From assembly GCF_900100665.1 (NCBI RefSeq), contig NZ_FNCS01000001.1:191001-255000 (forward strand): a stretch of DNA of 64,000 nt, given 5' to 3'. Of the stretch, positions 19,619 through 35,450 are shown piece after piece; position 1 is the first letter of the stretch, and each line of letters opens with the position of its first letter. Below the pieces are notes generated by a model. It was not told the origin of the DNA. It was given only the letters and a program-made list of their open reading frames with translations, and ran no database searches. Source of the stretch: Pelagibacterium luteolum (GTDB lineage: Bacteria > Pseudomonadota > Alphaproteobacteria > Rhizobiales > Devosiaceae). A program made the translations under genes and the position numbers.

Positions 19619-20551
19619 TCAGCGGCGAAGAGTTTGCGCTATACGCGCCGCGCCCAGAGCAGCATCGATCTGGGGAAACACAACCTCATGTCCGCTGAGC
19701 GACGCCCCGATGGCGGATCGGAAACTGGGCGTGATGTCGAGCAGCCCACCCACGAACCCCACCGGCCGTTCGCCGGCGCGCTTTATCAGCGCAAGACCGA
19801 GCCGCGCTAGCTCTCCGGCTGCCTCGGCGATAATCGTTTGCGCCAGCCGATCCCCGGCCTCTGCTGCCGCGCCCACCACCCGGGCCAGCGACCCGATGGT
19901 CCCGCGATCGGCGCCGTAGATATAGGCGCGCACGTCATTCCAGCTATCGCCGCCTATAGCATCGAACAATTGCCGCGCGAGAATTGTCGCGTCGCCACAA
20001 CCGCCCTTCTCGTCCAGGATCCGGTAGAGGCCATCGAGCGCCCGCAGCGCGATCCATGCTCCCGACCCGCCATCATCGATCAGAATACCGCGTCCACCGA
20101 CGCGAACGACCTCGCCATCCTGACCGATGTGCATGCCGACCGATCCGGTGCCCACCGAAATTAGATGCCCCGCGCCCGGCGCAAAAACGCTACGAAACGC
20201 GAGGTCCATATCGTCGCCAACACTGACGCTGTCCACAGAAAGACCAAAGGCCTGAGAAACGATATCCCTTGCGGTCTCGTGGTAGTCCTCCCCCAGCCCC
20301 GTTGCGCCGATATGGACGGCGCGCGGCTGCGCGCTATCCCGCGCAACAGCGGCAATTGCCGCGATCACCGCGATAAAGTCCTGCTTTGCCTCCGGGCGGA
20401 ATAGATGCCCTGTCGCCCCATGGGCAGCACCGCGCGCCAGAACCGCCCCCTCGGCATCGATAAGCACCCACCGCGAGCCCGTGCCACCCATGTCGATCCC
20501 GAGACAGACACCGTCTTGCGTGTCACTTGCGCTCAATCCATCATCGCCCAA
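19619..20551 (-). CDS. BadF/BadG/BcrA-type sugar kinase (N-acetylglucosamine/glucosamine kinase-like)
   Basis: ASKHA-fold kinase of 310 residues. It has the phosphate-1 loop LGIDMGGTGSRWVLID at about 17-32, a VSVGDDMD segment, and the phosphate-2 motif LISVGTGSVG. This family includes the glucosamine kinase GspK of Vibrio chitin operons and eukaryotic GlcNAc kinase. It would phosphorylate the monosaccharide released by the hexosaminidase. A TTG at 20551 with GAGGAG upstream is the likely start; no ATG is available before the nucleotide loop. A 154-nt gap separates it from the GNAT gene, so it may or may not share the transcript. Confidence 0.85.
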   Translation of the reverse strand: MGDDGLSASDTQDGVCLGIDMGGTGSRWVLIDAEGAVLARGAAHGATGHLFRPEAKQDFIAVIAAIAAVARDSAQPRAVHIGATGLGEDYHETARDIVSQAFGLSVDSVSVGDDMDLAFRSVFAPGAGHLISVGTGSVGMHIGQDGEVVRVGGRGILIDDGGSGAWIALRALDGLYRILDEKGGCGDATILARQLFDAIGGDSWNDVRAYIYGADRGTIGSLARVVGAAAEAGDRLAQTIIAEAAGELARLGLALIKRAGERPVGFVGGLLDITPSFRSAIGASLSGHEVVFPQIDAALGAARIAQTLRR

Positions 20552-20680
20552 CGGCTCTGCTCCTCTAGCCTATGCGCGCGTACTATATTGGCACTCAGCA
20601 CCCCCGCAAGCGTCACTCCCGACTGGTACACCGCTTCGCCCCGCGCTATGCAGGCGTCGCAAACGGAAGGTGTTGTTGCG

Positions 20681-21322
20681 ATGAGCGAAGGTGTTGCGCC
20701 GGGATTTGTGGCGATCTGGAACGGTGTAACACCGGGAACCGAGAACGACTTCGCCGCCTGGCATAAAAAAGAGCACATGCCCGAGCGACTCGCCATCCCC
20801 GGATTTCTGCGCGGAACGCGCTGGGGCGAGAGGACTTATTTCACGCTTTATGAACTCGCCCACCCCGACGTCGCCCGTTCTGCCCACTATCTCGAGCGGC
20901 TCAATGCCCCGACCGATTGGACGCGGCGGGTCATGAGCCATTTCCAAGACAATTCCCGATGCGTTGGCGCCTTCGTCCATTCGCTCGGCGCCATGCCCCA
21001 CGAGCGCGCGATCATTATACGCCTCGATGGCGAACAGCAGGGCACGATCGATGACGCCGTTGCAGTCGAGATTATGAACATCGCCGGCGTCAAGGGCTGC
21101 CATATCGGTCTCGCCGACAATGCAGTCTCCAGCATCAAGACAATCGAACGGCAGGGCCGACACGTCCACGAACCATGGGGTCTGATCCTTATCGCCCTCG
21201 ACGCCGATGCTGATCCGGCTCCGATCGAGGCGTCCGTCGGCCGCCATTTGCCTAAAGCTGCGCCAGAAATCCTGGACCTGACCCTGCAATTACAGATGAG
21301 CCGCGTATACGAGATCGTCTAA
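20681..21322 (+). CDS. Uncharacterised protein, tandem dimeric alpha/beta-barrel type
   Basis: Cytoplasmic protein of 213 residues without a recognised name. The first half has a ferredoxin-like dimeric-barrel pattern, with FVAIWNGVTPGTENDFAAWHKKEHMPERLAIPGFLRGTRW typical of small EthD/antibiotic-monooxygenase-like barrels (WHxxEHxPER...PGF). The second half seems to repeat the fold less clearly (ERAIIIRLDGEQQ..VGRHLPKAAP). The ATG at 20681 with GGAAGG upstream was chosen; an ATG at 20648 would add 11 residues. It lies 184 nt before the TRAP operon and may relate to its substrate (inference). Confidence 0.7.
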   Translation: MSEGVAPGFVAIWNGVTPGTENDFAAWHKKEHMPERLAIPGFLRGTRWGERTYFTLYELAHPDVARSAHYLERLNAPTDWTRRVMSHFQDNSRCVGAFVHSLGAMPHERAIIIRLDGEQQGTIDDAVAVEIMNIAGVKGCHIGLADNAVSSIKTIERQGRHVHEPWGLILIALDADADPAPIEASVGRHLPKAAPEILDLTLQLQMSRVYEIV

Positions 21323-21447
21323 AATTTTGGAGTCACTTGCGAAACTCGCGTTTCGCCCTGCACACGGCGCCCTCGCGCTGCAATTTTCACCACTCTGCAT
21401 GTCGATTGAGCAACTATAGCCCGCCTGTCTATATTTTGAGAATTTTC

Positions 21448-21506: not shown

Positions 21507-22523
21507 ATGAACCGCCGTGTCCTGCTTGCTTCGGCAGCAATTATCACCGTTCTGGCCGGTGCGCTTCCGGCCTCCGCTCAGGAATTTACAGCTCGCATCG
21601 GGCACCTGGAATCCGACCAGCAGCCGCGTCACCAGGGCCTGCAGATGGTTGCCGATCTGGTCTCCGAGCGCACTGACGGCGCCGTCGAGTTCCAGCTCTT
21701 CCCCGCCGGCCAGCTCGGCCAGGCGCGCGAAATGAACGAAGGCACCCAGCTCGGCCTGATGGAGGGCACGGTTTCGCCTGCAGCGTTCCTCGCCGGCTTC
21801 AACCCCGCCGTTTCGATCCTCGACGTCCCGTTCCTTTACCCGGCTGATCGCGAGGAGGCCAACGCCTTGCGCACCGGCCCCTTCGGTCAGGCCGTCCTCG
21901 ACAGCTTCGCACCCCTCGGCCTCAAGGCCATCGCCATCTGGCCGAATGGCCGCAAGTCGATGACGTCGAACGAAGATATTTCGGCGCTCGAAAACTTCTC
22001 CGGCCAGAGCTTCCGCGTCATGGATTCACAGGTGCTGATGGAGCAGTTCAACGCAGTCGGTGCTTCCGCCATCGCCCTGCCGTTCGGCGAGCTCTATACA
22101 GCGCTCCAGACCGGCGTCGTCGACGGCCAGGAAAACGCCCTCGATACCATCGCCACCATGAAGTACCAGGAAGTGCAGGACTACCTGCTCATCTCCGAGC
22201 ATGGCGCCAATGAAGACGTCGTGATGTTTAACCAGGGCTGGTGGGACGCGCTTCCCGCCGAATACCAGACGGTAATCGAAGAGGCGTTCGAAGAAGTCCG
22301 TCCGGAAGTCGAAGCGCTCAAGGAAGCGGCGCAGGACACCGCGCTCGAAACCATCCGCGCCAGCGACATTACCATCACCGAGCTTGACGATGCCCAGCGG
22401 ACCGCTTTCCGTGACGCCATGTACGGCCCGGCGCGCGACGCCTATCTTGCTGGCGCCGGCGACGTCGGTCAGCAGATCGTCGACACCTATGAAAGCCAGT
22501 ACGAAGAAATCGTCGGCCAGTAA
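21507..22523 (+). CDS. dctP: TRAP transporter solute-binding protein (DctP family)
   Basis: Periplasmic binding protein of 338 residues with a Sec signal peptide (cleavage after PASA, about 24). The DctP pattern is clear: FPAGQLGQAREMNEGTQLGLMEG, then GQSFRVMDSQV, whose R170 matches the conserved arginine that holds the substrate carboxylate, then ALPFGELYTALQTGVVDGQENAL. The substrate is therefore expected to be an organic acid. AAAGGGG precedes the ATG. It is the first gene of the DctPQM set. Confidence 0.94.
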   Translation: MNRRVLLASAAIITVLAGALPASAQEFTARIGHLESDQQPRHQGLQMVADLVSERTDGAVEFQLFPAGQLGQAREMNEGTQLGLMEGTVSPAAFLAGFNPAVSILDVPFLYPADREEANALRTGPFGQAVLDSFAPLGLKAIAIWPNGRKSMTSNEDISALENFSGQSFRVMDSQVLMEQFNAVGASAIALPFGELYTALQTGVVDGQENALDTIATMKYQEVQDYLLISEHGANEDVVMFNQGWWDALPAEYQTVIEEAFEEVRPEVEALKEAAQDTALETIRASDITITELDDAQRTAFRDAMYGPARDAYLAGAGDVGQQIVDTYESQYEEIVGQ

Positions 22524-22536
22524 GGCCTGAAGGATA

Positions 22537-22582
22537 CCGGCGCGCTTTTCAAAAGGTGCCGAGGATCGTGAACGGGCGCCGG
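22537..22582. promoter_or_regulatory. Intercistronic inverted repeat between dctP and dctQ
   Basis: CCGGCGC (22537-22543) can pair with GCGCCGG (22576-22582), enclosing a smaller CTTTTcAAAAG stem. It lies in the gap after the binding-protein gene, where the other transporters in this window also have a stem. The long loop makes it weaker than the others. Confidence 0.4.
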
Positions 22583-22635
22583 GGTGTATGAGCCTTGGCG
22601 CCTCTTCGTTTCAAGAAAGGGGTGGCCAGACCGTC

Positions 22636-23154
22636 ATGGAACCGAAAAACAACCTTGCAAGGGCATTGGGCGTCTTGGCGTCCTTCGAGCGCATAGCTCT
22701 TGCCCTGCTGATGCTCGCCATGGTGGCGCTCTATGTCACGGGCGTTTTCGTCCGCGAACTCTTTCCCACCTATTCGCGCAATGTCGCCTGGATCGACGAA
22801 GCCGCCCGCTACATGATGGTGTGGCTGGTGTTTCTCTCGCTCGGCCTCGCTCTCGCAGAGGGCCGCCAGATCGCCATGACCAGCTTTCTCGAACGCATGG
22901 GCGCAACGGCGCGACTGTGGATCGGCCGCGCGATCGATCTTACCGGGCTTGGCCTGTCGCTCTTTATTGCGTGGGTTGGCCTGGAAATGGCCCAGAGCGT
23001 TGCCCGCACCGGGCAGATCAGCCCCACGCTGGGTATCCCCGCCTCACTGCTCTATTACGCATTGCCGGCCGGCTTCCTCTTGCTGGCCTTCCGCTATGGC
23101 CTGAGCCTTTTTGGTCTGATCGACCGCTGGAACAAGACCGAAGGGGCGCACTGA
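22636..23154 (+). CDS. dctQ: TRAP transporter small permease (DctQ family)
   Basis: Four-helix inner-membrane subunit, 172 residues from the ATG at 22636. The pattern ERIALALLMLAMVALYVTGVFVREL, then WIDEAARYMMVWLVFLSLGLALAEGRQIAM is typical of DctQ (E-A-R-Y and GRQI). The alternative ATG at 22588 would add 16 residues and has no good ribosome-binding site; the AAAGGGG before 22636 is slightly far. It pairs with the large permease one base downstream. Confidence 0.88.
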   Translation: MEPKNNLARALGVLASFERIALALLMLAMVALYVTGVFVRELFPTYSRNVAWIDEAARYMMVWLVFLSLGLALAEGRQIAMTSFLERMGATARLWIGRAIDLTGLGLSLFIAWVGLEMAQSVARTGQISPTLGIPASLLYYALPAGFLLLAFRYGLSLFGLIDRWNKTEGAH

Positions 23155-23155
23155 G

Positions 23156-24439
23156 ATGCTGATTGCAGCCATAGTTTTCGGCGCCATGGCGCTTTTGTTC
23201 CTCGGGTTCGAGATGCTGATCGTTCTCGGCCTGCCGGGAATTCTGACCAAGGAACTGTTCTTTTCCACGATGCCCGATATCATCTACGGGCAACGCATCG
23301 TCGGCGGCATCAACCACTCGACGCTCCTCGCCATTCCGTTCTTTATCTTTGCCGCGGAAGTCATGTCCAAGGGCTCGATTGCCCGGCACCTGACCAATCT
23401 CGTCGGCGCCTTCCTCGGCCATCGCCGTGGCGGCATGGGGCTGACCACCGTCGCAACGGCCGCAGCCTTCGGTTCGGTCTCGGGCTCCGCCCCCGCAACT
23501 GTCGCAGCGCTCGGCGGCATCGTTTATCCCGAACTCAGGCGCCAGGGTTATTCCGACAAATTCTCACTCGGCCTTATTGTCTCCTCGGCTGAAGTTGCCC
23601 TTCTCATCCCACCTTCGATCACGCTCATCATCTATGCCTGGCTCACCGGGACATCGGTCGCCTCGCTGTTTGCGGCGGGCCTCGTCGTCGGCATTTTCCT
23701 CTCGCTCGTCTTTTGCGCCTATGTGCTGTTTTACGCGCACCGCAACGGGCTCAAGGGCGACATGCCAATGCCCTGGAACGAGCGCTTCAAGGTCATGGGC
23801 CGCAGCGTCTGGGCGGTTGGTCTGCCCGTCGTTTTGCTCGGCGGTATCTATTCGGGCCTATTCACGCCCACCGAAGCGGCGGCCGTCAGCGTCGCATACG
23901 CCCTGCTGGTCGAAGTCGTCATCTATCGGCACATGGGACTTAAGGACGTCTTCAAGGTCGCAACAGGCGCCGCAATCACCACCGGCAGCATTTTCGTGCT
24001 TCTGGCCATGGGCTCGATCGTCGCCTATTTCATTACCCTGGCCCAACTGCCCGCCATGGTCATCGACTTCCTCGACATGATCAACGCCAACTGGGTCGTG
24101 TTCCTCCTGATCGTCAACCTGCTGTTCCTTGTGGCCGGCATGTTCATCGATCCAAACTCGACCATGCTGATCCTCGTCCCGGCGCTCTATCCCGTGGCCG
24201 TAGCCTTCGGCATCGACCCGATCCATTTCGGCATCATCGTCTGTCTCAACACCTGTATCGGTATGATCACCCCGCCCTTTGGGCTCGATATCTTCGTCGC
24301 CTCATCGACGCTGGGCGAGTCGGTCTCAAAGATCATCTCGGGCATAACGCCGTTCATCATCGTCAACCTCCTGGCGCTGATGGTGATCTCCTACCTACCC
24401 GATATCTCGATGTTCCTGCCCCGCCTGCTGGCGCAATAA
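23156..24439 (+). CDS. dctM: TRAP transporter large permease (DctM family)
   Basis: Twelve-helix transport subunit of 427 residues. Hallmarks are the GSVSGSAPATVAALGGIVYPELRRQGYSDKFSLGLI segment and the matching second-half GMFIDPNSTMLILVPALYPVA and CIGMITPPFGLDIFV. It moves substrate with sodium together with DctQ and DctP. The gene begins one base after dctQ and ends just before a strong terminator. Confidence 0.94.
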   Translation: MLIAAIVFGAMALLFLGFEMLIVLGLPGILTKELFFSTMPDIIYGQRIVGGINHSTLLAIPFFIFAAEVMSKGSIARHLTNLVGAFLGHRRGGMGLTTVATAAAFGSVSGSAPATVAALGGIVYPELRRQGYSDKFSLGLIVSSAEVALLIPPSITLIIYAWLTGTSVASLFAAGLVVGIFLSLVFCAYVLFYAHRNGLKGDMPMPWNERFKVMGRSVWAVGLPVVLLGGIYSGLFTPTEAAAVSVAYALLVEVVIYRHMGLKDVFKVATGAAITTGSIFVLLAMGSIVAYFITLAQLPAMVIDFLDMINANWVVFLLIVNLLFLVAGMFIDPNSTMLILVPALYPVAVAFGIDPIHFGIIVCLNTCIGMITPPFGLDIFVASSTLGESVSKIISGITPFIIVNLLALMVISYLPDISMFLPRLLAQ

Positions 24440-24499: not shown

Positions 24500-25210
24500 T
24501 CAGCCCTTGGCAGCAGGCGCAAATTCCGAAATGCCGCCATGGGCCGACGACCAGCTCGCTGGATCGTTGAGGAAGCTTTCGACCTCGTTGAGCGTATGGG
24601 TATCGAAGTGGCCAGACTCCTTGGCCGCATCGAGCACGTCCCACCAGGTCGCAAGATAATGCAGCTCGATCCCGAGCTCTTTCATCAACTCGTGGCTGTT
24701 GGGGAAGATGTCGTAGTAAAAGACCACAAAGCAATGGTCGACCTGCGCGCCCGCCTTGCGCAGCGCATCGGCAAACATGACCTTCGAGCGCCCGTCGGTC
24801 GCAAGATCCTCGACCAGCAGCGTCCGCGCACCTGTCACGACCTCGCCCTCGATCTGCGCGTTGCGGCCGAACCCCTTGGCCTTCTTGCGCACGTACTGCA
24901 TGGGCAGCATCAGCTTGTCGGCAATCCATGCCGCAAAGGGGATACCCGCCGTCTCGCCGCCGGTTACCACATCGATCGATTCATAGCCGATTTCGGTGGC
25001 GATCGTATGCGCGGCCAGATCCATCAGCGCCGAGCGCAGGCGCGGGTAGGAAATGAGCTTGCGGCAATCGACATAGACCGGGCTGGCCCAGCCGGAGGTG
25101 AAAACGAAAGGCTGCTCGGCGTTGAAATGGATGGCGTTGATTTCAAGCATCATCCGGGCGGTCTGCCGGGCAATCGCTTTCTTGTCGTCGCCTAGGCGCA
25201 GTGTGCTCAT
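24500..25210 (-). CDS. pyrE: Orotate phosphoribosyltransferase
   Basis: Transfers the phosphoribosyl group from PRPP to orotate, the fifth step of UMP synthesis. 236 residues, with [19 protein letters not shown] near 36-53, [17 protein letters not shown], and the PRPP loop [13 protein letters not shown] at 131-143. The ATG at 25210 follows GAAGGGACC; the in-frame ATG at 25306 would add an atypical leader. It is the last gene of the minus-strand pyrimidine group, 104 nt after pyrC. Confidence 0.93.
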
Positions 25211-25314
25211 CTGGGGTCCCTTCGCTTCTCGTGCCTGCGGTCGCGCAAAATCGCGGCCGCCGGATGAAAGGTCCAGCGCCGCCGGAGTGGTAAGGCTCTC
25301 GTGCAACCGGTTCG

Positions 25315-26355
25315 CTATAACCCCGGGGCCAAAGCCCAGTCAACGTTTTCACCGGCAAACAGTGGGACAATTTCACGGTTCTCAACCGAAACGGTCTCGG
25401 GCGCCGTCCAGGACCGTTCTTCATACGTCACGCGCGTCTCCGACGGCGCAAAGCCATAAAACGCTGGCCCGTTGAGCGAAGCAAACGCCTCGAAATGCTC
25501 AAGCGCGTCGTCCTCGGCAAAAACCTTGAGATAGGCTTCGACAGCCACAGGGGCCGAAAACACCCCGGCACATCCGCAAGCAGCTTCCTTGAGATGCTTG
25601 AGATGGGGCGCGGTATCCGTCCCTAAAAAATAGTTCGCCGCCCCACTCGTCGCCGCCTTGCGCAAGGCAAGCTGATGCTTCCGGCGCTTCAAAATCGGCA
25701 GGCAGTAATAATGTGGGCGGATGCCACCCTCGAACAGTACGTTGCGATCATAAAGCAGATGCTGCGGCGTGATGGTCGCGGCCAGCCGATCGCCGCCACT
25801 GGCTACGAACTGTGCGCCCTCTTCGGTTGTGATGTGCTCCATCACGACCTTCAGCGTTGGATGCCGCTCGAGCAGCGGAGCCAGGATGTCATCGATAAAC
25901 CGCGCCTCGCGATCGAAGATATCGACATCTGCGTGCACCAGTTCGCCATGCGTCAAAAGCGGCATGCCCGCGTCGGCCATCGCCGCAAACACCGGATCGA
26001 GCGCCTCGACCGAGGTTACCCCATGCGCCGAATTGGTTGTCGCATGCGCCGGATAGAGTTTTGCCGCTGCAAAGATACCATCCCGATGCCCCGCCACGAG
26101 ATCGGCCGGCACTGTCGCGTCGGTCAGATAGCACGTCATCATCGGCGTAAAGTCGACACCCTCCGGCACCGCCGCCATGATGCGCCCGCGATAATCCGCT
26201 GCCATCTGCGCAGTCGTCACCGGGGGCACCAGATTGGGCATGACGATCGCCCGCGCGAACTGGCGCGCCGTATAGGGCACCACGGCATCGAGAACTTCGC
26301 CGTCGCGGAAATGGACATGCAGGTCGACGGGCTTGCGCAGGGTGATCGATCGCAT
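25315..26355 (-). CDS. pyrC: Dihydroorotase, class II (PyrC)
   Basis: Interconverts carbamoyl-aspartate and dihydroorotate. 346 residues, the length of the E. coli PyrC type. Zinc ligands H13 and H15 and substrate-binding R17 are in LHVHFRDG, followed by the diagnostic [24 protein letters not shown]. Further metal ligands are in HGELVHAD and MEHITTEEG. The pyrC-pyrE pairing is usual in this group of bacteria, so a biosynthetic role is likely. It could also serve the reverse reaction with the neighbouring genes. Confidence 0.94.
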
Positions 26356-26436
26356 GGGTGTTTTATTCCTCGGAGTGGGGTCAGAAAAAGCGACAGACTT
26401 TTTCGGTTCGACCTCGCGACAAAAGAAAAACCAGAA

Positions 26437-27729
26437 TCAGTTGGTTGACGTCACCGCCTTATAGAGCACATCGGTGCCTTTGATGAGATCATCGACATCC
26501 ATCGCCTCATGGGGGTTGTGCGAGCCATTGGCGTTGCGCACGAACACCATCCCCGAGGGCACCCCGGCATTGGCAAAAACCGCTGCGTCGTGCCCGGCGC
26601 CCGACGGCAGCGTTTGCGGATCGAGCCCACAATCCTCGGCCGCCCGCGTCAGCATGGCGATGATCCCTGCATCCATTTTCGCCGGCTCGGTATAGACCCT
26701 GTCGTCGAAGTCGAAATGAACGCCCCGCAACTGCCCCACCGACCGGCATTCGGAGCGGAACAGCTCATAAAACCCCTCAAGGGTATCGTGGCTCTGGCTG
26801 CGCACTTCGAAGGAAAACATCACCTCGCCGGGAATGCGGCTAATTGCGTGTTCCTCGGGATCGGTCCCCACGATACCCGTCGTCACGACGAGATCGAGGC
26901 CCCGTTCGAGCAGCACGCGCCAATGTTCGTCCAGCCGCCCCACGAGATCGGCGAAGGCAAACACGGCATCCTTGCGCCACCAGCGCGGAATAGTGCCCGA
27001 ATGCCCCGCTTCGCCACGGCAGACCACCTTGCGATGCCGCACATTGCCGCGAATGCCCGAGACGACCGCCGCAGGCAAGGCGCGATCGGTCATCACCGGC
27101 CCCTGTTCGATATGAAGCTCGAGATAGCTCGCAGCCTTTTGCGTATCGAAGAGGATCTCGCCATTGCGGATCGGATCGACAGCGATTCCCGTCGCCGCCA
27201 TGGCCTCGGCCAGCGTACGGCCCTTGCCACGCGAGCGCGCCGCGAGGTCCTTGTCGTCCAAAATCCCAAACAGCGCTCGCGATCCGATATTGGCCCGCCC
27301 GTAAAATGCGCTCTCTTCGCCACGCAGCATTAAAACCCGCACCGGCGTCGCCAGCTCGCGCCCGGATCTCGCCAGCCGGACGAGGCACATCAGCCCCGCA
27401 ACGATGCCCGCCGCGCCATCGTAATTGCCGCCCTGAGGCACCGAATCCGCATGTGATCCGATATAATGCGCAGCCTTTTCACCATCATCACCCGCCATGC
27501 GAACGACCATATTGCCGGCTGCGTCGGTGTCGATTGCAAACCCATAGGCCCGAGCGATGGAGCAAAATACCTCCAGCGCCGCGTCTTCCCGATCCGAATA
27601 ACACTCGCGTGTAATCCCCACCCCGTCACCGGTCTGCCGCCCCAATTCGGCAAAGATCGCGTCGGCCAGTTCATGCTCAGTCGCAAAGGCCGTCCAGTCG
27701 ATAACGGTGGTTGCGGGCACTGCCGTCAT
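26437..27729 (-). CDS. M20-family N-carbamoyl-amino-acid hydrolase / allantoate-amidohydrolase-like
   Basis: Zinc-dependent amidohydrolase of 430 residues. Metal and catalytic positions match the carbamoylase/ureidoglycolate/allantoate branch: GSHADSVPQGGNYDG with H93 and D104, LRGEESAFYGR with E138/E139, LELHIEQGP with H206, and a C-terminal GAGHDAAVF. Such enzymes release ammonia and CO2 from carbamoyl amino acids. It lies between pyrD and pyrC, its start overlapping the pyrD stop by 4 bp. Carbamoyl-aspartate, the metabolite those enzymes share, is therefore an attractive substrate (inference). Allantoate or another ureido acid is the alternative. Confidence 0.88.
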   Translation of the reverse strand: MTAVPATTVIDWTAFATEHELADAIFAELGRQTGDGVGITRECYSDREDAALEVFCSIARAYGFAIDTDAAGNMVVRMAGDDGEKAAHYIGSHADSVPQGGNYDGAAGIVAGLMCLVRLARSGRELATPVRVLMLRGEESAFYGRANIGSRALFGILDDKDLAARSRGKGRTLAEAMAATGIAVDPIRNGEILFDTQKAASYLELHIEQGPVMTDRALPAAVVSGIRGNVRHRKVVCRGEAGHSGTIPRWWRKDAVFAFADLVGRLDEHWRVLLERGLDLVVTTGIVGTDPEEHAISRIPGEVMFSFEVRSQSHDTLEGFYELFRSECRSVGQLRGVHFDFDDRVYTEPAKMDAGIIAMLTRAAEDCGLDPQTLPSGAGHDAAVFANAGVPSGMVFVRNANGSHNPHEAMDVDDLIKGTDVLYKAVTSTN

Positions 27730-28667
27730 TGCGCCGCCTCCATGACGTCGGGCGCAAGCATATCCGCATTGAGCGCCGCGCCGAGTTCGGCGACTGCGTT
27801 AAACCCCTTGCGGCGGCAATATTCGGTAATCCCCGCGATCACTTCGTCCATCGTACCCGGACGCGTAAACGTCGCCGTCCCGACCTGCACCGCCCGCGCA
27901 CCGGCCAGCAGAAATTCCACCGCATCTTCGGCGCTGGCGATCCCGCCGCACCCGATCACCGGAATATCGACGGCCCGCGCGCATTGGTACGTCATACGCA
28001 GCGCGATCGGCTTGACCGCCGGACCCGAGAGCCCGCCCATGACATTGCCCAGCGTCGGGCGCATGGTTTCGATGTCGATGGTCATGGCCAGAATGGTATT
28101 GGCCACCACAAGCCCGTCCGCCCCCGCAGCTTCCGCAGCCCGCGCCACCGACGCGATATCGCCGGTATTGGGCGTCAGCTTGGCCCAGAGCGGCAGATCG
28201 GTGACCTTTCGCATGGCGCTGACGGCTTGCTCGGTCGTCTGAGGCCGCATGGCAAACGCCTTGCCGTCCTCTTCGATATTGGGGCACGAAATATTGGCTT
28301 CGATCCCGGCAATACCCTCGACATTGAGCCGCGCTGCAGCCCTTCCGAAATCATCCACGGTCGGCGCTGAAATCGAAACGATCAGCGGGCTCGAAAACCG
28401 CCGATAGAACGGCAGCGCCTCATCAAGAAACTGGTCGATCCCCTTTGACGGAATGCCGATCGAATTGAGCATGCCATTGCCGACTTCGGCGACACGCGGG
28501 GTCGGATTGCCACCGCGCAATTCCGCAGTGATCGTCTTGGTGACTAATGCCCCCAGCCCGTTGAGATCGACCACCTTGGCCAACCCCTCGGCAAACGTCC
28601 CCGACGCCGGCATGACCGGATTGGCGAGCACCAGGCCCCGCCCCATATCGACTTTGAGATCTACCAT
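27726..28667 (-). CDS. pyrD: Dihydroorotate dehydrogenase, class 1B catalytic subunit
   Basis: FMN enzyme of 313 residues interconverting dihydroorotate and orotate. Class 1 features are NPVMPASGTFAEG (16-28), TKTITAELRGGNPTPRV, and ANISCPN with the presumed catalytic base C128; a membrane-binding helix as in class 2 is absent. The adjacent, overlapping pyrK shows class 1B, which uses NAD through an FAD/iron-sulfur subunit. The ATG at 28667 lies inside the 3' end of pyrK. Many proteobacteria use the quinone-linked class 2 enzyme, so this form here is notable and might work in the reductive direction. Confidence 0.92.
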   Translation of the reverse strand: MVDLKVDMGRGLVLANPVMPASGTFAEGLAKVVDLNGLGALVTKTITAELRGGNPTPRVAEVGNGMLNSIGIPSKGIDQFLDEALPFYRRFSSPLIVSISAPTVDDFGRAAARLNVEGIAGIEANISCPNIEEDGKAFAMRPQTTEQAVSAMRKVTDLPLWAKLTPNTGDIASVARAAEAAGADGLVVANTILAMTIDIETMRPTLGNVMGGLSGPAVKPIALRMTYQCARAVDIPVIGCGGIASAEDAVEFLLAGARAVQVGTATFTRPGTMDEVIAGITEYCRRKGFNAVAELGAALNADMLAPDVMEAAQ

Positions 28668-29509
28668 GAGGTCGCCTCGGACAGCGCAAATACCGGCCCG
28701 TCCCAGCAGACGCGCTTCGATATTGTTTCGCCCTCGACGGTAAAATTGCGCACGCAGCAAAAGCACATGCCCAGCCCGCACGCCATTTGCTGCTCCATGG
28801 CCACTTCGCCAAACACATCCAGTTCTGCAGCCAGCTTTTGCATCAGCAACATCAGCCGGTTCGATCCGCAGGTGTAAAACCCGTCGGCGCGCCCTTCGGC
28901 ATGAAGACGGCGCAGGATCGCTTCGACATTGGTCATCGCGCTGGTGCCATCGCTGTCGAGAACGATTTCGACCTTGGCCCCCGCCGCCCTAAACCTTTCG
29001 ACAGAGAGGATTTGCTCCGGCCCGCGCGCACTGACGATGGCGGTGACCGCCACGCCCCTGTCGCGCGCCATCTCCGCCAGCGGCGCCAATGTCGCAAGCC
29101 CCACGCCCCGCCCCAGAACGACGATTGATCGCACATCATCAGGCAGAGTGAACCCGACACCCAGCGGCCCCAGAATACGCGTGGTTCCGCCCGAGATCAG
29201 ACTGGCCAGTCCCCGCGTTCCCGCACCCGCAACCTTATAGAGAAACTCCACCCGGCCCGTTTCGGGATCGGCTGCATAAGTGCTCATCGGACGCCGAAAG
29301 AACGGCTTGTCTTCACCCACGACCGGGCACTCGATGTTGAAAAACTGCCCAGCCTCTGCGGACGCCGCCAGGCCCGGCGCATCGAGCACGATCAGCTTGT
29401 ACTCGGCATTGACCCAATCGTTGGAAACGACGCGCGCGACGGTGTCGGCGACTTGAGCTGCAAAACCGCCCGAACCGGGCGTCACATCGGCATTATCAAT
29501 CTGTCTCAT
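28661..29509 (-). CDS. pyrK: Dihydroorotate dehydrogenase electron-transfer subunit
   Basis: FAD/[2Fe-2S] subunit of 282 residues that connects PyrD to NAD(H). The FAD motif RRPMST is at 72-77, the GAGTRG and LGRGVGLAT nucleotide segments follow, and the C-terminal cluster ligands are C244, C249, C252 and C268 (ACGLGMCFCC...VCWDGP). The ATG at 29509 lies inside an 18-bp inverted repeat (29502-29519), so a bound regulator would sit on the translation start. First structural gene after the XRE regulator. Confidence 0.92.
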   Translation of the reverse strand: MRQIDNADVTPGSGGFAAQVADTVARVVSNDWVNAEYKLIVLDAPGLAASAEAGQFFNIECPVVGEDKPFFRRPMSTYAADPETGRVEFLYKVAGAGTRGLASLISGGTTRILGPLGVGFTLPDDVRSIVVLGRGVGLATLAPLAEMARDRGVAVTAIVSARGPEQILSVERFRAAGAKVEIVLDSDGTSAMTNVEAILRRLHAEGRADGFYTCGSNRLMLLMQKLAAELDVFGEVAMEQQMACGLGMCFCCVRNFTVEGETISKRVCWDGPVFALSEATSW

Positions 29510-29519
29510 TTTTGAGACA
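29502..29519. promoter_or_regulatory. Inverted-repeat operator at the pyrK start
   Basis: TGTCTCA (29502-29508), four T, TGAGACA (29513-29519): a perfect 7-4-7 inverted repeat covering the pyrK start codon and the short gap after the XRE gene. A related copy (14 of 18 bases) lies in front of the XRE gene at 30466-30483, so the XRE protein is the obvious candidate ligand. Confidence 0.7.
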
Positions 29520-29541
29520 ATGGGACAAGGTCCCGCTTTTG

Positions 29542-30447
29542 TCAATCGCCGGATCCGGCATCGACAGCCGCCGTCCGATCCAGAATGCGTCGCAGCATCG
29601 CGGCACCCTCGGCGCCTTTTTTCGCCCCGGCCCATTGGGCATCGAGCGTTTCCTTGAAATGCCGCACGGCCTCCGGCGCCGTGGTGACGATGGCGATCCC
29701 CGACGACACATTGGGCTGGTCCCCCAGCCGGTACGGCGACAGCGTCACCGCCGAATCCTGCTCCCGCTCATAGATCTGGAACGTCTGGCTCGGCGGCTGC
29801 CCCTCGACGATCCCGATCTGCGTACCAATCGGCTGGTGTTCGATCGTCGCGCATAGCCGCTCGATTTCCTTGCGCGCCGCGGCACGACGCTCGGCAACGA
29901 CCGCCGCAGGCAGATCGAACCGCCCCACCAGCCCCAGCAGCAAAAACCGCTCGATATCCTGGCTGCCGACGATCGAAACGATCGGCACCCGACGCCGCAT
30001 CGCGCTTTCGCGCCGCTCATTGAGCAGGTCCAAAATCTTGTCGATCGCCGCAATCGCCTTCTCGCGATCGGCAACCGTGTCCGAGATCGCCTCGATCAGC
30101 ATGACCCGCAACGCGACCATATAATCGGGGGACAATAACAGCGAGGACACCGGCGAAAAATTCCCCAGCAGATGCAGGGACTTCTCCTCCAACTGCCGCA
30201 TGCGTTCGAAAAAAGACAGCGCGTTGGAGTAATATTCGACCCCTACGCCGAGCAGTGACGGCAGCGAAACGTCCAAAAATTTGGAAATCGACTCGAGGAT
30301 CTGGATCTTGACGATCTCTCCCTTCTCCAGCCGATAGACCGCCGCGCGGGAGATGCCGAGATGGGCTGCAATGTCGTCGGCGCTTAGGTTTTTCCCCATG
30401 CGATACGCCCGTAGCCGTCGCCCGATTTCCTCAAACTGGATCGACAT
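29542..30447 (-). CDS. XRE-family transcriptional regulator with large C-terminal domain
   Basis: Regulator of 301 residues. A Cro/CI-type helix-turn-helix lies at about 7-62 (IGRRLRAYRMGKNLSADDIAAHLGISRAAVYRLEKGE). A C-terminal domain of about 230 residues, mostly helical then mixed, ends in a segment listing HQPIGTQIGIVEG...IAIVTTAPEAVRHFKETL; I do not recognise that domain. The ATG at 30447 with AAGGGGA upstream gives the standard HTH start. It precedes pyrK by 32 nt and has an operator-like copy upstream of its own start, implying autoregulation. Confidence 0.85.
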   Translation of the reverse strand: MSIQFEEIGRRLRAYRMGKNLSADDIAAHLGISRAAVYRLEKGEIVKIQILESISKFLDVSLPSLLGVGVEYYSNALSFFERMRQLEEKSLHLLGNFSPVSSLLLSPDYMVALRVMLIEAISDTVADREKAIAAIDKILDLLNERRESAMRRRVPIVSIVGSQDIERFLLLGLVGRFDLPAAVVAERRAAARKEIERLCATIEHQPIGTQIGIVEGQPPSQTFQIYEREQDSAVTLSPYRLGDQPNVSSGIAIVTTAPEAVRHFKETLDAQWAGAKKGAEGAAMLRRILDRTAAVDAGSGD

Positions 30448-30465: not shown

Positions 30466-30483
30466 CGTCTCACTTTTGATATA
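30466..30483. promoter_or_regulatory. Second copy of the pyrK-type operator, upstream of the XRE gene
   Basis: CGTCTCACTTTTGATATA aligns with 29502-29519 at 14 of 18 positions, keeping the left arm GTCTCA intact and losing part of the right arm. It lies 19-36 bases before the regulator start, in the divergent gap shared with the small gene at 30540. Confidence 0.55.
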
Positions 30484-30539: not shown

Positions 30540-30851
30540 GTGAACGAGCTTTATGCATGGCTCAATGAGCAGAACGGCGGCATCCGCACCTATGGCGAAT
30601 TCCACGCCAAAGCCCAGCAACTGGCGCGCGAAGACGCTGAAAACGCTGCCGTTCTCGCCCTGCTCGGCCGCATCGCCGCTCGCTTCGTTTCACGCTATGA
30701 AGGCGAACCCCTGCCCGTCGACAGCGCCAGCAAGGCCATCGCCCAGTTCCGCGATCTCGTCGCCACGGCCATCAGCGTCCGCACCGGCGCCGATGCCGAA
30801 AAACTCGCCTTCGCCAACCGCATCGCCACGACCGACCTACTGGCCGGCTGA
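30540..30851 (+). CDS. Small hypothetical protein
   Basis: Helical, soluble 103-residue protein, not recognised. A GTG start has AGGAG eight bases upstream, and codon use matches the neighbours. It carries no signal peptide, cysteines or clear motif; it begins MNELYAWLNEQNGGIRTYGEF and is alanine-rich afterwards. It is divergent from the XRE regulator and is followed by an R3 repeat. Confidence 0.65.
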   Translation: MNELYAWLNEQNGGIRTYGEFHAKAQQLAREDAENAAVLALLGRIAARFVSRYEGEPLPVDSASKAIAQFRDLVATAISVRTGADAEKLAFANRIATTDLLAG

Positions 30852-30986: not shown

Positions 30987-32657
30987 CTAAAGCCCCTTGG
31001 CCTGCGCCGCCTGCCGCAGTTTATCGAGCGTCGTACGCGGCGTAATCGCCTGCGGGTCGAGCTTGAGGTCGATGATTGCCGCTGTGCCCGACGCCAGCGC
31101 CCGCTCCATCGCCGGCGCAAATTGCGCCGTCTCTGTCACGGTCTCCCCATGCGCCCCGAACGCCTTGGCATAGGCGGCGAAATCGGGATTGACCAGATCG
31201 GTCGCCGATATCCGACCCGGATAATGGTTCTCCTGGTGCATGCGGATGGTGCCGAGGATGCCATTATTGAAAATGATGGTGATCGGCTTGGCGCCCGTCG
31301 CCATCGCCGTCGCCAGATCCTGACCGCTCATCAGAAAATCCCCGTCCCCGGCAAAGCAGACGACCGGCGCGTCGGGTTTGACGATCGCCGCGGCAATGGC
31401 GGCGGGAAACCCATACCCCATCGAGCCCGATGTCGGCGCCAATTGCGTGCCCAGCCGGCGATAGCGATGGAAGCGATGCAGCCAGACGGAAAAATTGCCC
31501 GCCCCATTGGTATAGATCGTCTCGACCGGCATGTTGGCTTCGAGCCACTCCATCACGCGTCCGAGTTGAACCGCCCCCGGATTGGCCGGACAGATCTGCC
31601 ATTCGCCATACTCGGCATGCGCGGCCTCCCCTGTCCCCGCCCAAACGGGATCGGCAATCGGCTCGAGCGCGCCCAGCGCCTTCGCAAATTCGCGCGGTGT
31701 GGCGTTGATCGCCAGCGTCGGATGATACACCCGCCCCAATTCCTCAGGGTCGGGGTGGATGTGAATGAGCGTCTGCTGGGGCACGGGAATATCGAACACA
31801 GTATATCCGCCCGTGGTCATCTCCGTCAGCCGCGCGCCAATCACCAGCAGCACATCCGCAGCCTTTATGCGTTCGAGCAGTTTCGGGTTCGGTCCGATCC
31901 CCAGATCGCCGGCATAAAGCGGATGCGCATTGTCGAACCGGTCGGCACGGCGAAAGCTCGTGGCGACCGGCAGATGATTGGCTTCGGCAAAGCGCTGGAT
32001 GCCATCAACCGCCTCCGTGTCCCACGGTGACCCGCCAAGCAGCACCATAGGCCGTTGTGCCCCAGCCAAAAGCGCTCGCACCGCGTCCAACTCCCCGGTC
32101 CCCGGCCAACTCTCCAGCGGCGTATAGGGCAAGGCATCGACCACATCGACAGCCTCGGTCAGCATGTCCTCGGGCAAAGCGATGGCCACCGGCCCCGGTC
32201 GCCCGCTCGTCGCAACGCGAAAGGCCCGCGCGATCAGCTCGGGCAGGCGCGCCGCATCATCGACCTGCACCGTCCATTTGGTCACCTGTCCGAACATGCG
32301 GCGATAATCGATCTCCTGGAACGCCTCGCGCTCGATCTGGTCGCGCGCCACCTGCCCGATGAACAACAGCATGGGCGTTGCGTCCTGCATCGCCACATGC
32401 AGCCCCGCGCTGGCATTGGTCGCCCCCGGCCCGCGTGTCACCATGCAGATGCCCGGCCGCCCGGTGAGCTTACCATGCGCTTCGGCCATCATCGCCGCAT
32501 TGCCCTCATGGCGGCAGGTGATCGTCTTGATCCCCCCAGCATCATGGAGCGCATCGAGCACGGCGAGATAGCTCTCGCCCGGCACGCAGAACACGTGATC
32601 GGCCCCATGCAGCGCAAGCTGGTCGACAAGAATTTGGCCGCCGGTGCGGATGGACAT
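30987..32657 (-). CDS. Thiamine-diphosphate-dependent enzyme, acetolactate-synthase-like
   Basis: A 556-residue enzyme of the ThDP decarboxylase/acetolactate synthase family. The catalytic glutamate E28 is in VFCVPGESYLAVLDAL. Then come CRHEGNAAMMAEAHGKLTG and GPGATNASAGL, and the diphosphate/Mg motif GDGDFLMSGQDLATAMATGAKPITIIFNNG. No regulatory small subunit is nearby, so branched-chain synthesis is unlikely. The ATG at 32657 follows GGGGAGGAG; a long upstream extension lacks homology. It is divergent from the IlvD/Edd dehydratase with a palindromic operator between, suggesting a role in the same sugar-acid catabolism. Its substrate is unknown. Confidence 0.87.
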   Translation of the reverse strand: MSIRTGGQILVDQLALHGADHVFCVPGESYLAVLDALHDAGGIKTITCRHEGNAAMMAEAHGKLTGRPGICMVTRGPGATNASAGLHVAMQDATPMLLFIGQVARDQIEREAFQEIDYRRMFGQVTKWTVQVDDAARLPELIARAFRVATSGRPGPVAIALPEDMLTEAVDVVDALPYTPLESWPGTGELDAVRALLAGAQRPMVLLGGSPWDTEAVDGIQRFAEANHLPVATSFRRADRFDNAHPLYAGDLGIGPNPKLLERIKAADVLLVIGARLTEMTTGGYTVFDIPVPQQTLIHIHPDPEELGRVYHPTLAINATPREFAKALGALEPIADPVWAGTGEAAHAEYGEWQICPANPGAVQLGRVMEWLEANMPVETIYTNGAGNFSVWLHRFHRYRRLGTQLAPTSGSMGYGFPAAIAAAIVKPDAPVVCFAGDGDFLMSGQDLATAMATGAKPITIIFNNGILGTIRMHQENHYPGRISATDLVNPDFAAYAKAFGAHGETVTETAQFAPAMERALASGTAAIIDLKLDPQAITPRTTLDKLRQAAQAKGL

Positions 32658-32864
32658 GAACAGGGCTCCTCCCCAATTGCGATAGCGCCGTAAAGTCACA
32701 GGACATTCGTCGACCTGTCCAGTGCTCCGTGGCGACTGTCCCCATGGACGTCTCCCCGGCCGACATTGGACCAGTCCCCGAATGCCCCGTCGCCTCCACA
32801 ACATCGGCGCAAGCTCCTGACACTCTGGGGGCCAAAAATCCCCGTCGCCCGCTTGCTGCAAAAG

Positions 32865-32880
32865 CACTAATGCATTAGTG
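32865..32880. promoter_or_regulatory. GntR-type palindromic operator, site 1
   Basis: CACTAATGCATTAGTG is a perfect 16-bp palindrome in the divergent promoter between the ThDP enzyme and the dehydratase. The same core ACTAATGCATTAGT recurs at 42695-42708, with weaker copies at 43822-43835 and 44653-44666, all upstream of genes in this locus. Confidence 0.8.
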
Positions 32881-32950
32881 TTGAAGTTGTCAAACAGATG
32901 CGCTAGGACCGTTAGACGAGACTGGACGCCATTAAAGCGGAGGAGACCCC

Positions 32951-34690
32951 ATGAGCAAGGACGATACCAAGAGTTCGGGCCGCAGAAGCGATCGCTGGTT
33001 CGTACCCGACGATCTGCGCTCCATGGGCCACCGTTCGCGCATGCTGCAGATGGGCTATGACGAGGCCGACTTTCTCGGCAAACCGATCATCGGGATCATA
33101 AACACCTGGTCGGACACCAATCCCTGCCACGGCCACTTCAAGGACCGCGTCGAAGACGTCAAGCGCGGCATCCTCCAGGCCGGCGGTTTCCCTGTCGAAC
33201 TTCCCGGCCTGTCCCTTTCGGAAAGCCAGCTCAAGCCCACCTCCATGCTCTATCGCAACATGCTGGCGATGGAGACCGAGGAGATGCTGCGCGCCCACCC
33301 CATCGACGGCACCGTCCTTATGGGCGGCTGCGATAAATCCACCCCCGGCCTCGTCCTCGGCGCCGTCAGCGCCGGCTATCCGATGATCTTCATGCCCGCC
33401 GGCCCCATGCTGCGCGGCAATTACCGCGGCGAAGCGCTCGGCTCGGGCTCGGACTCCTGGAAATACTGGGACGAACGCCGCGCCGGCACCATTGGCGAAA
33501 GCGAATGGAAGGAAGTCGAACAGGGCATCGCACGCTCGTTCGGCCATTGCATGACCTTTGGCACCGCCAGCACCATGACGGCCATCGCCGAAGCCCTTGG
33601 CCTCACTCTGCCCGGCGCCAGTTCGATCCCCGCCGCCGATACCAATCACAATCGCATGGCGACCCAGACCGGCCGCCGCGCCGTTGAAATGGTCCTTGAG
33701 GGCCTGACCCCCGACAAGATCCTGACCCGCCCCGCCGTCGATAACGCCGTGATCGTCGCCATGGCCACAGGCTGCTCGACCAACGCCGTCGTCCATCTCC
33801 TCGCCATGGCCCGCCGCGCCGGCATCGATCTGACCCTCGACGATCTCGACGCCGCCAGCCGCACCACGCCCGTGCTGGCCAATATCCGCCCGTCGGGGAA
33901 AAAATACCTGATGGAGGATTTCTACTTCGCCGGCGGCCTGCGTGCGCTCATGGCCCAGCTCAGCGACCGTCTGAACCTCGACGCAATCACCGTCTCCGGC
34001 CTGCCTTTGGGCGAAACCCTCAAAGGCGCCGAGATTTACAACGCCGACGTCATTCGCCCGCTCGATAACCCCATCTACCACGAAGGCTCGCTCGCCGTTT
34101 TGCGCGGCAATCTTGCCCCCGATGGCTGCGTCATCAAGCCTTCGGCCTGCGAAAGCCGGTTTTTAAACCATGAGGGCCCGGCTCTCGTCTTTGACTCCTA
34201 CCCCGAGATGAAAGCGGCGGTCGACGATGACGATCTCGACGTCACCGCCGATCACATCCTCATCCTGCGCAATGCCGGCCCGCAGGGCGGCCCCGGCATG
34301 CCCGAATGGGGCATGCTGCCCATCCCGCGCAAGCTTTTGCGTCAGGGCGTACGCGACATGCTGCGCATTTCGGATTCGAGAATGAGCGGCACCAGTTATG
34401 GCGCCTGCATCCTCCACGTCGCCCCCGAATCCCACATCGGCGGCCCGCTGGCGCTGGTCAAAACCGGCGACATCGTCAGGGTCGACGTGCCCAACCGCCG
34501 CATCGACATGCTGGTCGATGACGCCGAACTCGAGGCCCGCCGCGCCGCATGGGTCGCGCCAAAACCACACTACGAGCGTGGCTATGGCTGGATGTTCGTC
34601 AATCATGTGACGCAGGCCGACAAGGGCTGCGACTTCGATTTCCTCGAAACCCGTTTCGGCGCTCCCGTCGCCGAGCCCGATATTTTCTGA
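32951..34690 (+). CDS. IlvD/Edd-family sugar-acid dehydratase (L-arabinonate-dehydratase-like)
   Basis: Iron-sulfur dehydratase of 579 residues, converting an aldonic acid to a 2-keto-3-deoxy acid. Cluster cysteines fall at C59 (NPCHGH), C127 (GGCDKS) and C200 (FGHCMTF). As I recall, these are the positions and overall length reported for the Rhizobium leguminosarum L-arabinonate dehydratase. K129 and the late SDSRMSGTSYG segment, with its catalytic Ser, are also present. GGAGGAG lies just upstream of the ATG. It is followed closely by the RraA and dehydrogenase genes. Closely related aldonates are possible substrates. Confidence 0.92.
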   Translation: MSKDDTKSSGRRSDRWFVPDDLRSMGHRSRMLQMGYDEADFLGKPIIGIINTWSDTNPCHGHFKDRVEDVKRGILQAGGFPVELPGLSLSESQLKPTSMLYRNMLAMETEEMLRAHPIDGTVLMGGCDKSTPGLVLGAVSAGYPMIFMPAGPMLRGNYRGEALGSGSDSWKYWDERRAGTIGESEWKEVEQGIARSFGHCMTFGTASTMTAIAEALGLTLPGASSIPAADTNHNRMATQTGRRAVEMVLEGLTPDKILTRPAVDNAVIVAMATGCSTNAVVHLLAMARRAGIDLTLDDLDAASRTTPVLANIRPSGKKYLMEDFYFAGGLRALMAQLSDRLNLDAITVSGLPLGETLKGAEIYNADVIRPLDNPIYHEGSLAVLRGNLAPDGCVIKPSACESRFLNHEGPALVFDSYPEMKAAVDDDDLDVTADHILILRNAGPQGGPGMPEWGMLPIPRKLLRQGVRDMLRISDSRMSGTSYGACILHVAPESHIGGPLALVKTGDIVRVDVPNRRIDMLVDDAELEARRAAWVAPKPHYERGYGWMFVNHVTQADKGCDFDFLETRFGAPVAEPDIF

Positions 34691-34707
34691 TCCTTAGGAC
34701 CGCCGAT

Positions 34708-35433: not shown

Positions 35434-35450
35434 ACGAAGGGACCGCCACG

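Follow-up and report, generated by a model that had tools for sequence, protein, structure and literature searches.

The locus analysed here raises the question of why a gene for a carbamoylase-like M20 amidohydrolase is embedded among genes that bear the names of pyrimidine biosynthesis. It lies in a stretch of 64,000 nucleotides of Pelagibacterium luteolum DNA (the window), and an earlier description made from the letters of the DNA (the sequence-only reading) proposed that it serves reductive orotate breakdown, with the M20 enzyme as the hydrolase. Such breakdown is known from orotate-fermenting clostridia and some aerobic soil bacteria, and its enzymology dates from the Kornberg era. The comparisons presented below make it quite likely that the locus is an orotate-use operon, in which biosynthesis-like genes would be run in reverse, from orotate to aspartate. 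Its features are collected in Table 1.

Table 1. Features of the putative orotate-use locus (positions in the window)
Feature	Position	Strand	Basis or remark
TRAP-upstream degenerate palindrome copy	21426-21443		10/14 positions; upstream of TRAP genes
DctP-family TRAP substrate-binding protein, predicted to bind orotate	21507-22523	+	NF037995 and TIGR00787 over cut-off
TRAP small permease (DctQ-type by our reading)	22588-23154	+	ORF; kept between DctP and DctM genes elsewhere
TRAP large permease (DctM-type by our reading)	23156-24439	+	ORF; conserved
pyrE, orotate phosphoribosyltransferase	24500-25210	-	NF001729
pyrC, dimer-type dihydroorotase	25315-26355	-	TIGR00856
M20 hydantoinase/carbamoylase-family amidohydrolase	26437-27729	-	TIGR01879
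pyrD class 1B, catalytic subunit	27726-28667	-	NF005574 and TIGR01037
pyrK, class 1B dihydroorotate dehydrogenase, electron-transfer subunit	28661-29509	-	
Perfect palindrome TGTCTCATTTTTGAGACA, candidate operator	29502-29519		spans pyrK start codon
xre, predicted cluster regulator	29542-30447	-	HTH_3 match
Degenerate palindrome copy	30466-30483		11/14 positions; xre/small-protein promoter
Small protein, ca. 105 residues, predicted helix bundle	30540-30851	+	recurrent family, no credible Pfam match

The genes on the minus strand follow one another in the order xre, pyrK, pyrD, M20, pyrC, and pyrE, with overlaps of 7 nt between pyrK and pyrD and 4 nt between pyrD and M20; open reading frames and profile models confirm the consecutive pyrK, class 1B pyrD, M20, and pyrC genes and both overlaps of the sequence-only reading. 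pyrE falls within the interval 24500-30447 which that reading covered, though its text does not name it. The TRAP genes (21507-24439, plus strand) converge on pyrE. The comparison set comprised the 80 best M20 relatives and their loci, and in 35 of these, spanning alpha-, beta-, and gammaproteobacteria, the M20 gene follows pyrK–pyrD. Since pyrD and M20 are adjacent on the same strand, with pyrK upstream of pyrD, in 35 of the 80 loci, the arrangement is not due to chance.

PyrD passes two class 1B models (NF005574, 355.9 bits with a cut-off of 269, and TIGR01037, 308.8 with a cut-off of 270), its best solved relatives are the DHODB-type chains 5ue9, 5ksw, and 1ep1, and it has the motif NISCPN at position 125, the cysteine of which we take to be the active-site residue. 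PyrK does not reach the cut-offs set for PyrK equivalogs in NCBIfam; it carries the Fe-S domain PF10418 (42.6 bits, cut-off 23.9), has its cysteines within positions 244-268, and matches the solved DHODB PyrK chains 5ksw_B and 1ep1_B. By these models and motifs, the two proteins are subunits of a class 1B dihydroorotate dehydrogenase. A class 2 pyrD is located elsewhere in the genome, on contig C10, and one such gene scores over the cut-off in each of the 45 genomes searched, 28 of which carry the cluster; the class 1B enzyme is therefore an extra one, and the cluster pyrD is not the sole copy; a sole copy was what the sequence-only reading had named as speaking against itself.

The M20 protein scores over the cut-off of 204 with the subfamily model TIGR01879 (265.7) and has H93, D104, E138, E139, H206, R310, and H404 at the family metal-site and substrate-carboxylate positions, where the residue roles are presumed partly from general knowledge. 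By model and conserved positions it is an M20 amidohydrolase of the hydantoinase/carbamoylase family, distant from the solved members (best E 3.1e-47); its R310 appears to be the counterpart of Arg291, which forms a salt bridge in the R. radiobacter enzyme (PMC10952681). None of the substrate-specific models compared is passed, and no curated model assigns carbamoyl-aspartate as a substrate. In the tree of M20 proteins a branch (100/100) divides 60 pyr-adjacent sequences and one other from 23 without pyr genes, the window protein falling on the pyr-linked side; the pyrDK-linked proteins are not monophyletic (6 label changes), a clade with pyrE and without pyrDK being interspersed among them. 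Gene context leads to the prediction that the enzyme is an N-carbamoyl-L-aspartate amidohydrolase (ureidosuccinase). Position R298, considered as an active-site marker of the substrate, is R in 39 of 40 pyrDK-linked sequences and K in 17 of the 24 M20 proteins without pyr genes, whereas the 21 pyrE-only sequences have either V (16) or R (5); it follows the clade, and was dropped as substrate evidence.

PyrC passes TIGR00856 (413.8, cut-off 293) and contains the active-site motifs, whose residue roles we assume from general knowledge. The second pyrC that the sequence-only reading had proposed to look for was found as a dimer-type copy on contig C18. The cluster lacks pyrC in two of the five nearest genomes (G010 and G079), and the sister genome G001 has no dimer-type pyrC besides that of the cluster. 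As to the TRAP importer, its adjacency to the operon holds, but it is not merely nearby, since in other genera TRAP genes are in line with pyrK–pyrD–M20 and are preceded by the operator-like site.

XRE relatives are encoded near M20 in 21 of the 35 pyrDK loci. In the AF2 model of the window's XRE (pLDDT 90.4), the C-terminal part resembles PLD-fold proteins and, weakly, also TrmBL2; a sensor-like domain of PLD-like fold is thus predicted from the model, and the protein may be the regulator of the cluster, responding to a ligand. The candidate operator, of the consensus TGTCTCA-N4-TGAGACA, is met repeatedly across the loci, ahead of xre, importer, and pyrK genes: a site matching at least 10 of 14 positions precedes 30 of 65 xre, TRAP, MFS, and pyrK starts, whereas in loci lacking pyrDK it precedes 23 of 584 gene starts. 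Taken by itself, the copy upstream of the TRAP genes is weak, a score of 10 being reached at seven further places in the window. No such site precedes any of 15 small-protein starts (those found with two of three queries) or five of the six aspA starts. The small-protein family is present in 21 of the 35 pyrDK loci and in none of the 45 others; the window's member has no Pfam match, its AF2 model (pLDDT 91.9) predicts a helix bundle, and none of 64 matches in a PDB fold search with it reached E ≤ 0.001.

According to the proposed scheme, orotate would be imported by the TRAP system (by an MFS carrier in other bacteria) and reduced to dihydroorotate by NADH-fed PyrDK, PyrC would open the ring to give N-carbamoyl-L-aspartate, and M20, which would thereby be ureidosuccinase, would hydrolyse the latter to L-aspartate, CO2, and ammonia; in some relatives aspartase would then convert aspartate into fumarate. 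Alternatively, PyrE would route orotate into UMP, and would also act in de novo synthesis beside class 2 PyrD. Acting at the palindromic site, XRE probably controls the operon together with the importer, and perhaps the small protein as well. Counting against the scheme is that a dihydroorotase is found in just 17 of the 35 loci (dimer PyrC in 15, another type in 2, each of these two over the NF006688 cut-off) and an importer of the two families in 22 (TRAP in 10, MFS in 12), some contigs ending early. The missing pyrC of G010 and G079, the scattering of the pyrDK-linked M20 proteins in the tree, and the small-protein and aspA starts that lack the operator-like site count against it as well. 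In its favour, the roles of importer and dihydroorotase are filled by different families among the loci, the MFS carrier being of the aromatic-acid type, and the division of the M20 tree and the recurrence of the operator-like site speak for it too.

pyrE passes NF001729 (389.5 bits, cut-off 245) and codes for the sole orotate phosphoribosyltransferase found in the genome, where pyrD and pyrC are duplicated; because no other copy was found, the operon is probably used for UMP synthesis as well and hence is probably not purely catabolic. The breakdown route first proposed, with M20 as the hydrolase, has gained good comparative support, from the extra class 1B pyrD and the conserved linkage, while a purely catabolic role is improbable. 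pyrE is linked in 29 of the 35 pyrDK loci, and both this linkage and the sole copy fit biosynthesis equally well. They also agree with orotate salvage as the primary function—import and PyrE leading to UMP, with PyrDK, PyrC, and M20 bleeding off excess orotate and carbamoyl-aspartate—but this is unlikely, as 6 of the 35 loci (one of them, L058, a short contig) have no pyrE close to the module and the examined Klebsiella and P. putida plasmid stretches lack it, while the aspartase gene near in 5 of the 35 loci (over the TIGR00839 cut-off in two of these) fits catabolism. A second, NAD-linked dihydroorotate dehydrogenase taking part in ordinary UMP synthesis, with M20 acting on an unrelated ureido compound, would explain why PyrC and PyrE pass biosynthetic models, the single pyrE, and the lone dimer-type pyrC of G001; it is a distinctly improbable explanation given the class 2 pyrD of all 45 genomes, the pyrD–M20 adjacency in 35 loci of three proteobacterial classes, the importer and regulator accompanying the module, and the two plasmid stretches without pyrE. 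It is scarcely credible that PyrDK and PyrC have been repurposed to degrade, instead of orotate, some other substituted pyrimidine or a dihydropyrimidine: dihydropyrimidine dehydrogenase is related to the class 1B enzymes (149.6 bits with NF006183, below its cut-off of 335), but models for orotate or dihydroorotate are passed by PyrD, PyrC, and PyrE alike.

An orotate-use operon would provide a set of genes with which orotate breakdown can be tested in aerobic proteobacteria and, in M20, a candidate sequence for ureidosuccinase, an enzyme described decades ago; it also cautions that a catabolic operon can include pyrK, pyrD, and pyrC genes that carry a biosynthetic annotation. Among the matches listed in a literature search on orotate use, most subscription papers being outside its scope, neither a description of the cluster nor a gene for the clostridial or soil pathway was found, and 'ureidosuccinase' gave no match. 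The module is located beside lac genes, on one stretch, in 49 Klebsiella plasmid records, and a function is thereby proposed for a region common to dozens of Klebsiella lac plasmids; in one Klebsiella plasmid record this region is annotated gene by gene only. One Klebsiella and one P. putida plasmid stretch comprise genes for the MFS carrier, pyrK, pyrD, M20, dihydroorotase, xre, and the small protein. Orotate is plentiful in cow's milk, and if the proposal is true, plasmid-borne lactose use would be tied to a second milk nutrient. Whether all this amounts to a widespread, partly mobile orotate-scavenging regulon, with M20 as the sequence of ureidosuccinase (EC 3.5.1.7), the small helical protein and the PLD-fold XRE as new components, and a milk-use region with lactose genes on the Klebsiella plasmids, seems to us evenly balanced.

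Among known systems, the plasmid-borne lac region in Klebsiella of bovine mastitis (PMC12724306) resembles the one described here in that the 49 records have the module and plasmid lac genes together on one stretch; the main text of that paper contains neither the letters 'orot' nor 'pyrimidine'. The predicted reactions, orotate to dihydroorotate to carbamoyl-aspartate to aspartate, are identical to those of orotate breakdown in clostridia and soil bacteria, whereas the gene set here is proteobacterial and includes an importer, an XRE regulator, a small protein, and pyrE. The reductive uracil pathway (PreTA or PydA, dihydropyrimidinase, and beta-ureidopropionase) follows the same logic of a reductase, a cyclic amidohydrolase, and a carbamoyl hydrolase, the last belonging in some bacteria to the M20 family; the cluster differs in having PyrDK, a true PyrC, and an M20 protein distant from the solved members. 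With the pyrK–pyrD, pyrC, and pyrE genes of de novo pyrimidine synthesis it has protein families in common, but it is extra to class 2 PyrD, has a hydrolase and an importer linked with it, and is found also on plasmids.

The pyr cluster is predicted with good confidence to encode a reductive orotate pathway, because its hydrolase would work against synthesis and its class 1B enzyme duplicates a class 2 one. All the genes listed in the sequence-only reading (xre, pyrK, pyrD, the M20 gene and pyrC) were found as open frames on the minus strand, and pyrE falls inside the same interval, giving the transcription order xre, pyrK, pyrD, M20, pyrC, pyrE. The proposed overlaps were confirmed (pyrK-pyrD, 7 nt; pyrD-M20, 4 nt), as was the TRAP importer beside the cluster; gaps of ca. 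80 and 100 nt precede pyrC and pyrE, respectively. PyrD exceeds the class 1B model cut-offs and its nearest solved relatives are of the DHODB type, while PyrK is matched by solved PyrK chains and does not reach the NCBIfam PyrK cut-offs. The M20 protein passes the TIGR01879 cut-off, which places it in the hydantoinase/carbamoylase family, and matches none of the substrate-specific models listed. The same genes are present in L104, a contig labelled Devosia, with 85-89% identity (TRAP subunits, 71-87%).

Features located in the window (plain positions) and at related loci (locus:positions)
Feature	Position	Remarks
Small protein, ca. 105 residues	30540-30851	divergent from xre
TRAP importer	21507-24439	facing the operon
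Protein without Pfam match	20405-21322	upstream of the TRAP genes; 50% identical ORF at the same place in related genomes G001 and G010
Operator-like site (13/14)	L038:3094	directly upstream of the frame corresponding to 20405-21322
Genes adjoining the cluster	30987-36389	TPP enzyme above the NF006052 cut-off; dehydratase scoring 1075 bits with the L-arabinonate dehydratase model (cut-off 882); RraA-like gene; hydroxyacid-dehydrogenase-like ORF (by reading); looks like a sugar-acid pathway
Protein of ca. 285 residues	L097:5811-6665; L133:3807-4658	Pseudomonas clusters, between xre and MFS; no Pfam match
Malic-enzyme-like gene and chemotaxis receptor	L133:11112-14152	after the module on the P. 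putida plasmid
Three M20-family ORFs in tandem	L113:8602-12541	no pyr genes

The class 2 pyrD and second pyrC that the sequence-only reading had proposed to look for both exist. A PF01180 search of the genome gave two dihydroorotate dehydrogenases, the cluster copy and one on another contig, C10, whose score of 376.6 bits exceeds the class 2 cut-off of 200, and the cluster pyrD is thus not the sole copy; dimer-type PyrC is likewise present twice. Class 2 pyrD is over the cut-off in 45 of the 45 genomes searched (28 with the cluster, 10 of the same genus without it and seven with pyrE-M20 only), and in the last seven no second dihydroorotate dehydrogenase was found. The cluster pyrE is the only orotate phosphoribosyltransferase found in the genome, with no further TIGR00336 match above 27.0 bits; a match on contig C42 (24.7 bits) was rejected, as it reads as an adenine phosphoribosyltransferase. 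Ten same-genus genomes without the cluster-type M20 have instead a TIGR00336 match scoring 55-63 bits that is probably another pyrE, and since no such match was found in the window's own genome, G001 or G010, the usual gene seems to have given way to the cluster pyrE in this genus. G001 has no dimer-type pyrC besides the cluster copy, and a single copy of the other type above its cut-off. The single pyrE here and the sole dimer-type pyrC there indicate that the operon is probably dual-use.

The cluster-type M20 (at least 48% identity) occurs in five of 101 genomes (own and 100 relatives), adjoined by pyrK, pyrD and pyrE in all five, with pyrC outside the cluster in two (G010, G079). A wider contig scan with five M20 queries gave 549 confirmed matches, of which the best 80 served as a sample: 35 with pyrK and pyrD (pyrDK loci), 21 with pyrE but no pyrDK (on short contigs in some cases) and 24 with no pyr gene. 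In this sample pyrD and M20 are same-strand neighbours in 35 of 35 pyrDK loci, with pyrK upstream of pyrD by ORF positions; in L071, pyrK, pyrD and pyrC are each split into two ORFs. Within 8 kb of M20 these 35 loci hold pyrE (29), xre (21), pyrC (15), MFS (12), TRAP (10), aspartase (5) and a second kind of dihydroorotase (2). A tree of 84 M20 sequences (L104 excluded as a fragment) split 60 pyr-linked rows and one unlinked row from 23 other unlinked rows with support of 100/100; within the linked side the pyrDK-linked proteins are not one clade (six changes). One M20 clade has pyrE without pyrDK (L062, L064, L077, L079, L080, L081, L082, L087, L092, L095); in nine of its ten loci (all but L080) pyrE is preceded by a minus-strand gene belonging to one cluster, which in L062 is a LysR regulator, and downstream lie a TctC receptor (L064, L080) or an ABC binding protein (L079, L092).

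From one bacterium to another, the transporter and the dihydroorotase come from families that are unrelated or only distantly related, as would be expected if the loci had a substrate in common rather than a gene history. The one MFS protein tested fits best an aromatic-acid type model, under its cut-off (333.7 vs 418.6). Aspartase would consume the predicted product, aspartate; two of the five aspartases in the 35 sampled pyrDK loci pass TIGR00839, the others scoring 673.1 (cut-off 681.2), 550.8 and 425.9 (a shorter frame).

A perfect palindrome, TGTCTCATTTTTGAGACA, spans the pyrK start and is the sole site of its kind in the whole genome (A/T spacer, up to three mismatches), as many as a reversed control pattern gave. 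In the window alone, two sites with up to three mismatches against 0.98 expected are no excess over chance, and the case for an operator therefore rests on other loci. In 40 loci, made up of the 35 sampled pyrDK loci and five others, sites matching at least 10/14 positions were sought between -300 and +60 relative to estimated gene starts, with expectations from shuffles; in these per-gene counts, where divergent genes have some sites in common, they precede xre in 14/22 cases (1.95 expected), TRAP in 8/12 (1.19), MFS in 6/11 (0.68; second query 2/3, 0.26), pyrK in 8/36 (2.77), aspA in 1/6 (0.4) and the small-protein gene in 4/5 with the window's query (0.37), and in 0/8 and 0/7 with two other queries. 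In the 35 sampled pyrDK loci, 30 of 65 xre, TRAP, MFS and pyrK starts have such a site, versus 23 of 584 starts in loci without pyrDK; at 12/14 or more the counts are 9/65 versus 0/584. Other cluster-gene starts in those 35 loci gave 7/144 (none at 12 or more) and outside-gene starts, a category including small-protein genes and ORFs with common promoters, 32/368 (seven at 12 or more). We infer that the XRE protein binds these sites; its C-terminal domain has a predicted PLD-like fold (best E 1.1e-4, TM 0.42; TrmBL2 at 4.3e-3), which would be consistent with a small-molecule sensor role.

A search of 84 loci gave 25 members of the small-protein family, 21 in the 35 sampled pyrDK loci (whole locus) and four in further cluster loci, with none in the other 45; the window's own and those on three plasmids are further members. 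Pfam gave no match for the window's protein and scattered weak ones for the others (best E 0.0074). It is modelled confidently as a helix bundle, with no significant match among solved structures; a regulator partner or an enzyme accessory would be guesses at its role.

A tblastn search with M20 (E <= 1e-80) gave 77 plasmid records, 53 of them from Klebsiella; three of the 77 were opened. The Klebsiella plasmid carries MFS, pyrK (annotated as hypothetical), pyrD, M20, pyrC, xre and the small protein, and the 19 kb viewed contain no pyrE; the P. putida plasmid has xre, MFS, pyrK, pyrD, M20, a dihydroorotase and the small protein, with no pyrE in 17 kb; the Nitratireductor plasmid has TRAP and pyrE. 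A 13-kb Klebsiella query, from the MFS gene through lacZ, was covered to at least 80% in 49 records, all Klebsiella among the matches listed (best 60 rows), a few of them with insertions, and four further Klebsiella records there carry the module and an incomplete lac part; the sum equals the 53 tblastn records by total, not by record-by-record matching. A search of 5,426 E. coli genomes gave no near match. Of the 49 records, nine carry a milk or bovine-mastitis label and the rest are mostly from humans or wastewater or carry no label; in H88, a milk isolate, the lac genes are present and the module is absent. Orotate is abundant in cow's milk, and the module may hypothetically be linked to milk.

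The classical reductive orotate route is the reaction sequence predicted here. No account of the gene set was found among the literature matches listed, nor is it treated in the accessible parts of PMC10041152, PMC1940265, PMC10952681 and PMC12724306. In the accessible part of PMC4016543, class 1B PyrD is placed next to dihydropyrimidine dehydrogenase families, and the M20-linked module that appears there differs from this cluster.
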